From Kribbella albertanoniae (lineage in GTDB: Bacteria > Actinomycetota > Actinomycetes > Propionibacteriales > Kribbellaceae), in contig NZ_SMKA01000011.1 of assembly GCF_004348455.1 (NCBI RefSeq), positions 1-64,000 of the forward strand: DNA of 64,000 nt, given 5' to 3'. The notes beneath the pieces are model-generated. The model saw only the letters and a program-made list of their open reading frames with translations, ran no database searches and had not been told where the DNA came from. Every line of letters begins with the position of its first letter. Position 1 is the stretch's first letter. Both the position numbers and the translations under genes were made by a program. Positions 3,714-7,006 of the stretch are shown piece by piece.

Positions 3714-4615
3714 AGCTGACGCTCGGCGGACTGCCGCAGCACGTCGTTGTCCGGGGTTCCACCGAGAACCCGCTGCTGCTGATCCTCCACGGTGGCCCAG
3801 GGTTCGCCAGCATGCCGCTGTTCACCACCTACAACGCGGAGCTCGAGAAGGACTTCCACGTCGTGCACTGGGACCAGCGTGGCGCCGGGCGGACGTACAC
3901 ACCAGACACTCCGCCGGCGTCGATGACCATGGCCCAGTACGTCGCCGACGCCGTCGAGCTGATCAACTGGCTGACCAGCCGCTACGAGCAGAAGAAGGTC
4001 CACCTGCTCGGGCACTCGTGGGGCGGCCACATCGGCGCATCGGTCGCCGCGAAGCACCCCGACCGGCTGCACAGCTTCATCGGCGTCGCTCCGCTCGTCG
4101 CAGGGATCCGGAACGAGCAGGCGTCCTGTGCGTTTACGTTGCGCAAGGCAACGGAAGCCGGAGACACCGGGGCGTTGCGGATCCTGCGCGAGATCGAGTC
4201 GCGGTACTCGGGCAGCTTCCGCTACCTCGACCTGGTCGTGCAGCGCGGACTACTCGCGGAGTACGGCGGTACGACGTACCGGGACCTGGGTGCGTTGATC
4301 AACGGTGTCCCGGCCGAGCTGCGGGACGAGTACTTCGGCAGAGCGCTGGCAACGGCTCAGGAGTTCTGCTGGGAGCACCTGCTGCCAGAGCTGATGGCTG
4401 CCGATCTCAGCCGGACCGCACACACCATCGACGTACCGGTGCATCTGATCCTTGGGCGGCACGACCAGACCACTCCGTCCGAGCTGGCGGTCGAGTGGTT
4501 CGACCTGTTGTCGGCGCCGAGCAAGGAGCTGCACTGGTTCGAGGAGTCGGGGCATCTGATCCCGCACGAGGAGCCGGTGAAGTTCAACGAGCTGGTGCGT
4601 TCCATAGCGCGGTGA
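3710..4615 (+). CDS. Alpha/beta hydrolase, proline iminopeptidase-like (S33)
   Basis: The 301-residue protein has the S33 hallmarks in order: HGGPG (27-31, oxyanion hole), WDQRGAG (54-60), nucleophile elbow GHSWGG with Ser103, acid Asp252 in GRHDQTTP, and His282 in SGHLIP. There is no signal peptide, so it acts in the cytoplasm. S33 members cleave N-terminal proline or small amides and esters; the exact substrate is unknown. The ATG at 3710 overlaps the TGA of the alginate-lyase-like gene, and this is the only start that keeps the family N-terminus. The open frame continues upstream through the neighbouring gene, but that part is an overlapping shadow. Its 3' end overlaps the convergent ilvY gene by 32 nt. 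Confidence 0.88.
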   Translation: MKLTLGGLPQHVVVRGSTENPLLLILHGGPGFASMPLFTTYNAELEKDFHVVHWDQRGAGRTYTPDTPPASMTMAQYVADAVELINWLTSRYEQKKVHLLGHSWGGHIGASVAAKHPDRLHSFIGVAPLVAGIRNEQASCAFTLRKATEAGDTGALRILREIESRYSGSFRYLDLVVQRGLLAEYGGTTYRDLGALINGVPAELRDEYFGRALATAQEFCWEHLLPELMAADLSRTAHTIDVPVHLILGRHDQTTPSELAVEWFDLLSAPSKELHWFEESGHLIPHEEPVKFNELVRSIAR

Positions 4616-5420
4616 CGAGCGGGCGGTGCAGGTCGGTACGGCGGACGCACAGTCCGATCGGAAGTGGGTCGAGCGGCGGATGGACGCGGCGCTCGACCAG
4701 TCGGCCGGAGAAGGTCGATGTGTCGAGAACCAGTCGCGGGACGATGCCGATCCCGATCCCGAGGTCGACCAGGGCCAGTAGCGCCTCATGGCCGTCCGGC
4801 TCCGCTGCAATCGACGGCCGCAACCCCCTGGCCCGGAACCACCGGAACGCTGCCTCACGCACCAGTCCGCGCGCCGGAACGACGTACGGGCCGTCTGACG
4901 GCACTCCGGGCGCACTGACCAGGATCAGGTCCGTGGTGGCGATGGTGCGGCTGACCAGGGTGCCCGGGAGGCGCGGTGGGATGCCAGCCACGGCAGCGTC
5001 GACCTCGCCCTCGTCCAAACGAGCCAGTGCCATCGCAGCGTCACCGGTGCGGATGTCCAGCCGGATCTGCGGGTGCGCAGCGTGCAGTGGCGCCAGCAGG
5101 TCCGGCAGCAGCGCCTCGCAGGCAGTGACAGTCGCGAAGATGCGCAGCTCACCGGTCAGGTCCGCCGGTACGTCGGTCCCCGCGCGGTAGTCGCTCCACA
5201 GCCCCAGCACCTGCTCCGCGTACGACGTGAATCGGCGACCGTCGGCCGTGAGCACCACTCCGCGCGGACCGCGGTCGAACAGCCTGCTCCCGGTGCGCAG
5301 CTCCAGGCGCTGGATGGTCCGGGTGAGCGTGGCGGCACTGACGTGACACTCCAAGCTGGTGCGGCCGTAGTTGAGCGTCCGGGCCAGGTGCAGGAATAGT
5401 TCGAGCTCGCGATGATCCAT
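4584..5420 (-). CDS. ilvY: LysR-family regulator of ilvC, IlvY type
   Basis: The 278-residue protein has an N-terminal LysR helix-turn-helix (about residues 1-60: MDHRELELFLHLART, then SAATLTRTIQRLE) and a C-terminal effector domain. It resembles E. coli IlvY in several places: the opening MD-R-L--FLHLA, GELRIFATVTACEALLP, LDIRTGDA, DGHEALLALVDLGIGIGIVP and the ending IGLCVRR. IlvY activates ilvC when bound to acetolactate or acetohydroxybutyrate. It is transcribed divergently from ilvC with a 74-bp intergenic region that holds two LysR-type boxes, the first touching this start codon, which suits autoregulation. The 3' end overlaps the convergent hydrolase gene. The assignment rests on remembered similarity plus the diagnostic gene arrangement. 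Confidence 0.88.
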   Translation of the reverse strand: MDHRELELFLHLARTLNYGRTSLECHVSAATLTRTIQRLELRTGSRLFDRGPRGVVLTADGRRFTSYAEQVLGLWSDYRAGTDVPADLTGELRIFATVTACEALLPDLLAPLHAAHPQIRLDIRTGDAAMALARLDEGEVDAAVAGIPPRLPGTLVSRTIATTDLILVSAPGVPSDGPYVVPARGLVREAAFRWFRARGLRPSIAAEPDGHEALLALVDLGIGIGIVPRLVLDTSTFSGRLVERRVHPPLDPLPIGLCVRRTDLHRPLVTALWNAPAR

Positions 5421-5437
5421 GTTTCACCTTTTGAAAC
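5421..5437. promoter_or_regulatory. LysR-type box at the ilvY start
   Basis: GTTTCA (5421-5426) and TGAAAC (5432-5437) form a perfect dyad around 5 nt and contain the LysR T-N11-A pattern (T5423, A5435). It abuts the ilvY ATG, so binding here would block or limit ilvY transcription. This is probably the autoregulatory half of a two-site operator. Confidence 0.65.
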
Positions 5438-5450
5438 GCCGCGGTGCAGA

Positions 5451-5469
5451 TCTTGCGCTTGCTGCAAGA
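5451..5469. promoter_or_regulatory. Second LysR-type box upstream of ilvC
   Basis: TCTTGC (5451-5456) and GCAAGA (5464-5469) form a perfect dyad with a 7-nt spacer and fit T-N11-A (T5454, A5466). The centres of this box and the one at 5421-5437 are 31 bp apart, about three helical turns, which suits a tetrameric LysR regulator bound on one face. It lies 25 nt upstream of the ilvC ATG. Confidence 0.65.
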
Positions 5470-5494
5470 GTAGCTTCGGTTTTGACTGAAAGGC

Positions 5495-6955
5495 ATGACC
5501 ACCATCGACTCGACGGTCTTCACGACCGAGACCATGACGGTGCCCGGGGGATCCGAGACGATCCTCCGCGGCGGCCGCGACCTGTTCCCGCTGCTCCCCG
5601 CGGCCTTCCACGGCATCCAGCGGATCGGCGTCCTCGGCTGGGGCCCGCAGGGCCGCGCCCAGGCCCTCAACCTCCGCGACTCGCTCGCCGGGACCGGCAT
5701 CACGGTCTCGGTCGGCCTCCGCGCCGGCTCGACCTCGGCTGACGACGCCCGCGCCAACGGGTTCACCGAGGAGGACGGGACACTCGGCGAACTGCTGAGC
5801 GTCGCGGCCGCCTCGGACCTGGTGATCCTGCTGATCGCCGACGCCGCCCTGGCCGCCCAGCACGAGACGATCTTCCAAGCGTTGAAACCCGGCGCCACGA
5901 TCGGCCTGTCGCACGGCTTCCTGCTCGGCCACCTGCAGGCCACCGGCCAGGACTTCCCGCCCGGCCACCCGGTGATCGCTGTCTGTCCGAAGGGCATGGG
6001 CGATTCGGTACGGCGTCTCTACCAGCAGGGCGCGACGGTCAACGGTGCCGGGATCAACGCGAGTATCGCGGTCCACGCCGACCCGGACGGGCATGCGACC
6101 GACCGGGCACTGGCGTGGTCGGTCGCCCTCGGGTCGCCGTACACGTTCGCCACCACGTTGTCGTCCGAGTACCGCTCGGACATCGTCGGTGAACGGGCGA
6201 TCCTGCTCGGCGCGGTCCACGGCCTGGTCGAGGCGCTCTACCGGTACTTCCGGCTCGAAGGGGCCGACCCGATCACGGCGTACGAGCGGTCCACCGAGGC
6301 GGTGACCGGGCCGATCGCACGGACGATCTCGGCCGCCGGACTACCCGCCGTACGGGCTGCTTTGTCCGGTGCGGACCAGGATCTGTTCGATCGTGCCTAC
6401 AGCGCGACCTACCAGCCTGCTCGCGATCTGGTCGCCGAGATCTACGATGAAGTTGCCGAGGGCACCGAACTCCGCAGCGTCATCCTGGCCGAGAGCCGCC
6501 TGGCCACCCGGCCGATGACCGCGATCGCGGGCAGCGAGATGTGGTCGCACAGCGCCGAGGTGCACGCCCGCCGAGGCGCGACGACAACCATCGACCCCGT
6601 CACCGCCGGGCTCTTCGTTGCCACGATGACAGCCCAGGTGGACGAATTCGCGGCCCGCGGTCATGTCTGGTCGGAGATCGTGAACGAGTCGATCATCGAG
6701 GCCGTCGACTCACTGCTCCCCTACATGCACGCCCGCGACGTCGCCTACATGGTCGACAACTGCTCCCGCACCGCCCGCCTCGGCACCCGGCGCTGGGGCC
6801 CCCGCTTCCAGGCGGCCTACGAACAGCTAGCCCTGCCCGCCCTCGCCAACCCGGCTGACCCGAAGGCCATCGAGTCCTTCCTCCACAACCCCGTCCACGA
6901 AGCCCTCGCCGTAGCCGCCGAGCTCCGCCCCTCAGTCGACATCTCCGTCACCTGA
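5495..6955 (+). CDS. ilvC: Ketol-acid reductoisomerase, long class II, plant-like
   Basis: This enzyme makes 2,3-dihydroxy-isovalerate (or -methylvalerate) from acetolactate or acetohydroxybutyrate with NADPH in branched-chain amino acid synthesis. The protein has 486 residues, the class II length; typical actinobacterial enzymes are class I, about 340. The Rossmann loop is GWGPQG (48-53). Metal and acid residues appear as Asp229 and Glu233 (SDIVGER) and Glu398 and Glu402 (NESIIE). Long stretches follow the spinach chloroplast enzyme as I remember it: LRGGRDLFPLLP, GLSHGFLLGHLQ, VIAVCPKGMG, NGAGIN, MHARDVAYMVDNCS, ELRPSVDISVT. It is divergent from ilvY and ends at a strong terminator. The only SD-like sequence (AAAGG) is very close to the ATG; an in-frame ATG at codon 14 is an alternative. 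A class I copy probably exists elsewhere in the genome. Confidence 0.95.
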   Translation: MTTIDSTVFTTETMTVPGGSETILRGGRDLFPLLPAAFHGIQRIGVLGWGPQGRAQALNLRDSLAGTGITVSVGLRAGSTSADDARANGFTEEDGTLGELLSVAAASDLVILLIADAALAAQHETIFQALKPGATIGLSHGFLLGHLQATGQDFPPGHPVIAVCPKGMGDSVRRLYQQGATVNGAGINASIAVHADPDGHATDRALAWSVALGSPYTFATTLSSEYRSDIVGERAILLGAVHGLVEALYRYFRLEGADPITAYERSTEAVTGPIARTISAAGLPAVRAALSGADQDLFDRAYSATYQPARDLVAEIYDEVAEGTELRSVILAESRLATRPMTAIAGSEMWSHSAEVHARRGATTTIDPVTAGLFVATMTAQVDEFAARGHVWSEIVNESIIEAVDSLLPYMHARDVAYMVDNCSRTARLGTRRWGPRFQAAYEQLALPALANPADPKAIESFLHNPVHEALAVAAELRPSVDISVT

Positions 6956-6965
6956 GACAGCAGAG

Positions 6966-6994
6966 GGCCCGGAACACGAGAAGTGTTCCGGGCC
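6966..6994 (+). terminator. Strong terminator after ilvC
   Basis: A perfect 12-bp stem, GGCCCGGAACAC (6966-6977) with GTGTTCCGGGCC (6983-6994), closes a GAGAA loop and is followed by TT. It lies 10 nt after the ilvC stop and 12 nt from the glmM stop on the other strand, so it probably serves both convergent genes. Confidence 0.85.
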
Positions 6995-7006
6995 TTAGCT
7001 ACTTCT

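Follow-up and report, generated by a model that had tools for sequence, protein, structure and literature searches.

A chloroplast-type ketol-acid reductoisomerase divergently paired with an IlvY-type regulator in Kribbella albertanoniae

Why should an actinomycete carry a ketol-acid reductoisomerase (KARI) that resembles the chloroplast enzyme, where did the gene come from, and what controls it? In the window, by which we mean the whole 64,000-nucleotide stretch of Kribbella albertanoniae DNA that was analysed, positions 5495-6955 of the forward strand hold an intact open reading frame, starting with ATG, for a plant-type class II KARI of 486 amino acids, which belongs to the group named clade A below and matches Pfam KARI_N (1.1e-27) and KARI_C (5.2e-29). 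A sequence-only reading had taken the gene for a long, plant-like class II enzyme, and this was borne out: among solved structures the top matches were spinach 1qmg (556 bits) and rice 3fr7 (554 bits), the next chain gave 131 bits and E. coli 1yrl only 69 bits. In a common alignment the window KARI was 56.3% identical to the spinach enzyme and 26.8% identical to E. coli IlvC.

Of the three motifs quoted in that reading as shared with plants, all of them present in the window KARI, spinach has two unchanged, GLSHGFLLGHLQ and VNGAGIN; the third, ELRPSVDISVT, is one letter off (QLRPSVDISVT in spinach). The claimed spacing of the four acidic metal ligands (D229, E233, E398 and E402) is likewise kept inside each pair (i, i+4) but not between the pairs, which are separated by 169 residues compared with 177 in spinach. 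These four residues were invariant among 17 aligned bacterial plant-type KARIs, as were H140, K166, E225 and S424; all the metal, substrate and NADPH residues are retained in the window KARI, and its NADPH loop is GLRAGSTS, as in plants. An AlphaFold model of the protein (pLDDT 85, pTM 0.87) superimposed on spinach 1qmg over 480 residues at 1.8 Å with a Z of 51, compared with 34 for the E. coli class II enzyme and no more than 30.6 for enzymes of class I length. The protein length and the 480-residue alignment fit an enzyme of about 490 amino acids with a duplicated C-terminal knot domain.

The window gene encodes a complete plant-type class II KARI, for which KARI activity with Mg2+ and NADPH can be predicted from its sequence. 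It shares with the plant chloroplast KARIs (spinach 1qmg/1yve, rice 3fr7/3fr8) the sequence family (56% identity), the double knot domain, the metal and NADPH residues and the predicted fold. In contrast to them, it is a bacterial protein that lacks the six-residue FYEKEG insert and is paired with a bacterial LysR regulator. The curated NCBI ilvC models miss this plant-type family: the window KARI scored 74.5 bits with PRK05225, the model for gammaproteobacterial class II IlvC (cut-off 713; E. coli IlvC scores 1029), and 178 bits with the NCBIfam ilvC equivalog TIGR00465 (cut-off 226). The clade B enzymes and the G036 enzyme described below also fell under the TIGR00465 cut-off, indicating that this model does not cover plant-type KARIs. 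The tree proposed in the sequence-only reading placed the window KARI outside the gammaproteobacterial IlvC, to which it is 25-27% identical, and a gammaproteobacterial origin was rejected.

A class I KARI was found in the same genome on contig C142, immediately behind ilvB and ilvN, the neighbourhood in which that reading had advised looking for one. This copy and the Streptomyces IlvC of PMC4353338 belong to the same reaction family as the window KARI, but these actinobacterial class I enzymes are short, about 27% identical to it and located behind ilvB-ilvN. PMC5940873 assigns to class I the Streptomyces KARIs characterised in PMC4353338, a study in which class II goes unmentioned. A class I KARI was also present in 40/40 other plant-type KARI carriers tested, and the window KARI is an accessory enzyme beside an ordinary class I KARI.

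The genome contains a second plant-type KARI, 55% identical to that of the window and a member of clade B, on contig C222 (L087:12602-14107), where its neighbours encode a ThDP-dependent enzyme, a metallo-beta-lactamase-fold hydrolase and a DUF427 protein. Large linear plasmids of Streptomyces carry relatives of the C222 copy, one of which lies among transposases. A lone plant-type KARI without an adjacent IlvY-like gene was found in G036, a genome from a different class of the phylum (L090:8398-9888), and is 59-60% identical to the window KARI and 60.5% identical to spinach. No IlvY-type operators were evident in the 160 bp inspected before the C222 copy, the plasmid copies and the G036 gene.

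The position of these enzymes was analysed in trees whose plant-type KARIs came from Actinomycetota and plants only, together with outgroups. When distant outgroups were omitted, the plant-type KARIs split into clade A, clade B, the singleton G036 and the plants. Clade A comprises the IlvY-linked enzymes (100/99), and clade B comprises the C222 copy, the Streptomyces plasmid copies and the enzyme of genome G882 (100/99). The plants joined clade B, with support of 96/92 without an outgroup and 100/100 in a reduced set rooted with class I, and spinach KARI shared 60-61% identity with G036 and with most of clade B, compared with 53-57% for clade A and the C222 copy. The nearest bacterial kin of the plant enzymes in the sample is clade B, not the clade A of the window, and of the two clades A is the less likely source of the plant gene. 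Rooting with class I, E. coli and fungal/Bacteroidetes KARIs gave low root support and a very long outgroup branch, so descent of the plant gene from the window lineage, one of the two explanations suggested in the sequence-only reading, stands only as a possibility. Passage in the opposite direction, from plants or algae into actinobacteria, could account for the high similarity to plant enzymes but is extremely improbable, given that in the unrooted trees the bacterial clades A, B and G036 are deeper than the plant branch and surround it, and that a bacterial regulator and its operators travel with clade A.

The best non-plant sequence matches were fungal and Bacteroidetes KARIs of class I length (Candida auris 7toc and Parabacteroides IlvC), which share the CSTTAR motif but have a single knot domain and only 347-363 amino acids. 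In alignments this single domain pairs with the second of the two knot domains in plant-type KARIs, and the class I-rooted tree puts E. coli IlvC among ordinary class I enzymes, suggesting, with the caution that long branches call for, that the two kinds of class II enzyme duplicated the knot domain independently. The published "class II KARI of Mycobacterium tuberculosis" (PMC8985424) does not serve as a precedent, since its DNA is 100% identical to a Morganella gene and of the E. coli type.

Relatives were sought among genome contigs, and the best 80 of 111 loci, all from Actinomycetota, were compared; among the matches listed, the closest named relatives of the window KARI were from Kribbella, which bears out the sequence-only label of actinomycete. 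Clade A genes were present in 24/38 Kribbella genomes, and plant-type KARIs in 26/296 Streptomyces genomes, 27/392 genomes (4/40 genera) of the order, 2/395 of the class and 3/396 of the phylum. Carriers are patchy and include Kribbella, Streptomyces, Pseudonocardia, Nonomuraea and others. The sequence-only reading had allowed that such enzymes might be standard in the whole order, an idea rejected on the 27/392 count.

The same reading had suggested horizontal transfer, which found support between actinobacteria. With each genome's own class I KARI as the yardstick of relatedness, and all identities taken to the enzymes of the window genome, Pseudonocardia oroxyli, from another order, had a plant-type KARI of 79% identity and a class I enzyme of 68%, while the values were 81% and 84% in Microlunatus parietis, 67% and 83% in Microlunatus speluncae, and 63% and 87% in Actinopolymorpha alba, a member of the same order. 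The two Microlunatus species and several Pseudonocardia were scattered across different parts of the tree. These plant-type identities are out of step with relatedness, arguing for transfer. The composition of the window gene (GC3 0.90, similar to its neighbours) gave no sign of recent import, and no plant-type KARI was found in the phage collection or in viral contigs. Decayed copies were seen in Streptomyces G953 (L169), which has KARI fragments broken by stops and a regulator that also contains a stop, besides an intact copy elsewhere, and in one Kribbella genome (G405:C1:2079972-2081489) the KARI is split over two frames.

The adjacent IlvY-type regulator and its operators, which the sequence-only reading passed over, are a more informative part of the locus than the enzyme alone. 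The gene divergent from the KARI gene, at 4584-5420 on the reverse strand, encodes a LysR regulator of 278 amino acids and of the IlvY type (NF008722). It scored 245.6 bits with the IlvY model, 0.4 bit under the curated cut-off of 246, compared with 89.5 bits for the next family, and the model matched 12/12 aligned LysR members. In a tree with OxyR, CynR, CysB, MetR and two other LysR proteins of the same genome, where the other LysR branches were long, it grouped with E. coli IlvY at 100/99; the two are 37% identical, compared with 21-27% for the other LysR proteins. It was the only strong IlvY match in its genome (240.7 bits; next 116).

An IlvY-type LysR gene was the divergent neighbour of the KARI gene in 72/80 related loci; one of the remaining eight was cut by a contig end, and in seven, all from Kribbella, the LysR gene lay beyond the flank examined. 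Distances between KARIs and between their LysR partners were correlated (r 0.93, a value reached in 0/2000 permutations). In Kribbella the regulator and the enzyme occurred in exactly the same 24/38 genomes, and in Streptomyces the regulator was present in 25/26 KARI genomes, the sole exception having a clade B enzyme. A chance neighbourhood was rejected on the divergent pairing, the correlation and the Kribbella co-occurrence. In Kribbella G427 (L164:5104-11389), which has this last arrangement, the KARI gene is about 6 kb from the regulator gene, which sits directly behind glmM; a cluster with LacI, ABC sugar transporter and ThuA genes lies between the two, and a similar separation was seen in other Kribbella. 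Five Streptomyces genomes (L159-L163) contain a group of IlvY-like LysR genes, 54-57% identical to that of the window, without a plant-type KARI and with no KARI adjacent; the neighbours include a small methyltransferase-like gene in four and an isochorismatase-like gene in one, and the one member tested scored above the IlvY model cut-off. Kinship to IlvY alone is thus no proof of KARI control.

The regulator and KARI genes are separated by 74 bp (5421-5494), in which three putative operators were located. IR1 (TTTCACCTTTTGAAA, 5422-5436) adjoins the start codon of the regulator and has the form TTTC-n7-GCAA. IR3 (TTGCGCTTGCTGCAA, 5453-5467), 31 bp from IR1, is the most conserved element, and a putative weak middle operator, IR2 (GTGCAGATCTTGCGC, 5444-5458), overlaps it at 22 bp from IR1; IR2 is weakly conserved, and its position agrees with that of E. 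coli IR2. Among 85 distinct intergenic sequences, the IR1 consensus TTTC-n7-GCAA was found in 70, the IR3 form TTGC-n7-GCAA in 76 (0.06 expected), TGCGCTTG of IR3 in all 85, and IR1 and IR3 together, 31 bp apart, in 82 (against 0.01 expected from shuffled sequences); the consensus was drawn from the sequences in which it was counted, and the E. coli pattern that it matches was published independently. At Kribbella loci with the LysR gene about 6 kb away, the operators remain before the KARI gene.

The 9.7-Mb genome has a single instance of the paired operator pattern. In the 38 Kribbella genomes it gave 21 matches, all directly before a plant-type KARI gene, and the reversed pattern, used as a control, gave none in the same genomes. 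From its sequence pattern, this looks like a putative one-gene regulon.

Downstream of IR3, a putative -10 hexamer, TTGACT (5482-5487, forward strand), lies 6-7 nt before the KARI start codon. The ATG follows the start of IR3 by 42 or 43 nt in 88/88 distinct sequences, and TACAAC or TAGAAC stands 6 or 7 nt before it in 70/88 (63 + 7); the TTGACT of Kribbella is weaker than these hexamers of most relatives. Were IR3 located around -34, its position in E. coli, the transcript would start at the ATG, and the KARI mRNA would be leaderless. On the other side of the gene, a strong hairpin (6964-6996; -33.8 kcal/mol, z -6.4) between the convergent KARI and glmM genes is a probable bidirectional terminator.

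The ilvY-ilvC locus of E. coli is the closest known arrangement in terms of control. Its control region contains TTGCAAAAATTGCAA, with more half-palindromes at distances of 22 and 31 bp, and in this IR1/IR2/IR3 layout IlvY represses its own gene and activates ilvC on acetolactate or acetohydroxybutyrate (PMC5002191), the two compounds also reported to bring about IlvY activation in PMC6483228. The window shares with it a divergent LysR/KARI pair, a regulator of the IlvY family with an apparently single target, and TTGC-n7-GCAA operators with sites at 0, +22 and +31. Several features differ, however: the E. coli enzyme belongs to another class II subfamily (27% identity to the window KARI), the control region is 149 bp in E. 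coli and 74 bp in the window, and the window genome also holds a class I KARI. The strongest site is IR1 in E. coli but IR3 in the window, indicating that operator strengths differ.

We consider it probable that the locus is a mobile module of an IlvY activator and a plant-type KARI, which would provide a substrate-inducible second KARI beside the housekeeping class I enzyme under a regulator with one target. IlvY-type control is suggested by the paired operators in the 74-bp control region that the two genes share. Using Mg2+ and NADPH, the enzyme would turn acetolactate and 2-aceto-2-hydroxybutyrate into dihydroxy acids, supplementing the class I KARI encoded in the ilvBNC cluster. Bound at IR1 and IR3, the regulator would repress its own gene; as the KARI substrates accumulate, it would move to IR1/IR2 and turn on the KARI promoter, from which a transcript would begin at or beside the ATG. 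The purpose may be extra inducible capacity, possibly with high affinity for substrate and Mg2+ as in plants.

This last point can be put more narrowly, as a refinement and not a contradiction of the module reading: the KARI may be an inducible high-affinity backup that serves when Mg2+ or substrate is scarce, as in chloroplasts. Plant KARIs have Km values of about 11 uM (acetolactate) and 5 uM (Mg2+), the latter lower than in bacterial and fungal counterparts, and Streptomyces class I enzymes have a Km of 0.8-12 mM for acetolactate (PMC5940873). These low plant values make such a backup plausible, and the predicted fold of the window KARI is close to that of plant KARI, but 56% identity does not fix a Km, and we regard this version as possible rather than favoured. 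It seems unlikely that the module serves, on the same logic as a backup, to bypass inhibition, with soil compounds blocking the class I KARI so that acetolactate accumulates and IlvY turns on a structurally different KARI. Its patchy, horizontally moving distribution, always beside an intact class I enzyme, would suit this role, as would the facts that the compounds expected to accumulate are the ones that induce IlvY (PMC6483228) and that the spare KARI belongs to a different class. However, no inhibitor, biosynthetic cluster or resistance phenotype was seen, and, as IpOHA also inhibits plant KARI (1yve), cross-resistance would not be automatic. If it held, the module would be a self-sensing cassette giving soil actinobacteria resistance in a central amino-acid pathway. 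A supply of branched-chain starter units to a biosynthetic cluster is more doubtful still: KARI relatives have been recruited into clusters elsewhere (BurG, PMC9359912) and a ThDP enzyme is encoded close to the C222 copy, but the window gene is surrounded by housekeeping genes, and beyond the LysR-KARI pair its neighbours are not conserved between genera.

Returning to the IlvY/plant-type KARI module, the enzyme family and the regulator are each of an already known kind. No description of their pairing, or of an actinobacterial IlvY governing a plant-type KARI, was found in the literature searched, which largely left out subscription journals, and searches of the same scope for IlvY in Streptomyces and for KARI together with Archaeplastida and Actinobacteria returned nothing relevant. 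In that literature the IlvY switch was associated with the KARI of gammaproteobacteria. In the present locus apparently the same regulator, operator and spacing would control a chloroplast-type KARI, in a phylum usually described as having class I only, offering a clean case in which a regulator keeps its substrate signal while the enzyme differs. The pair could provide a ready-made acetolactate sensor for high-GC hosts. The two clades of bacterial plant-type KARI in one genome are material for testing the origin of the chloroplast enzyme, and such bacterial enzymes would allow herbicide-target chemistry to be compared between plant-type and class I KARIs.

Two further observations concern genes at these loci. 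In Pseudonocardia eucalypti a third KARI-like gene (G1077:C1:1831929-1832867), 37% identical to class I, is present besides the class I and plant-type copies. In the window, the regulator gene and a convergent alpha/beta-hydrolase-like frame overlap at their 3' ends by about 32 bp (4584-4615).
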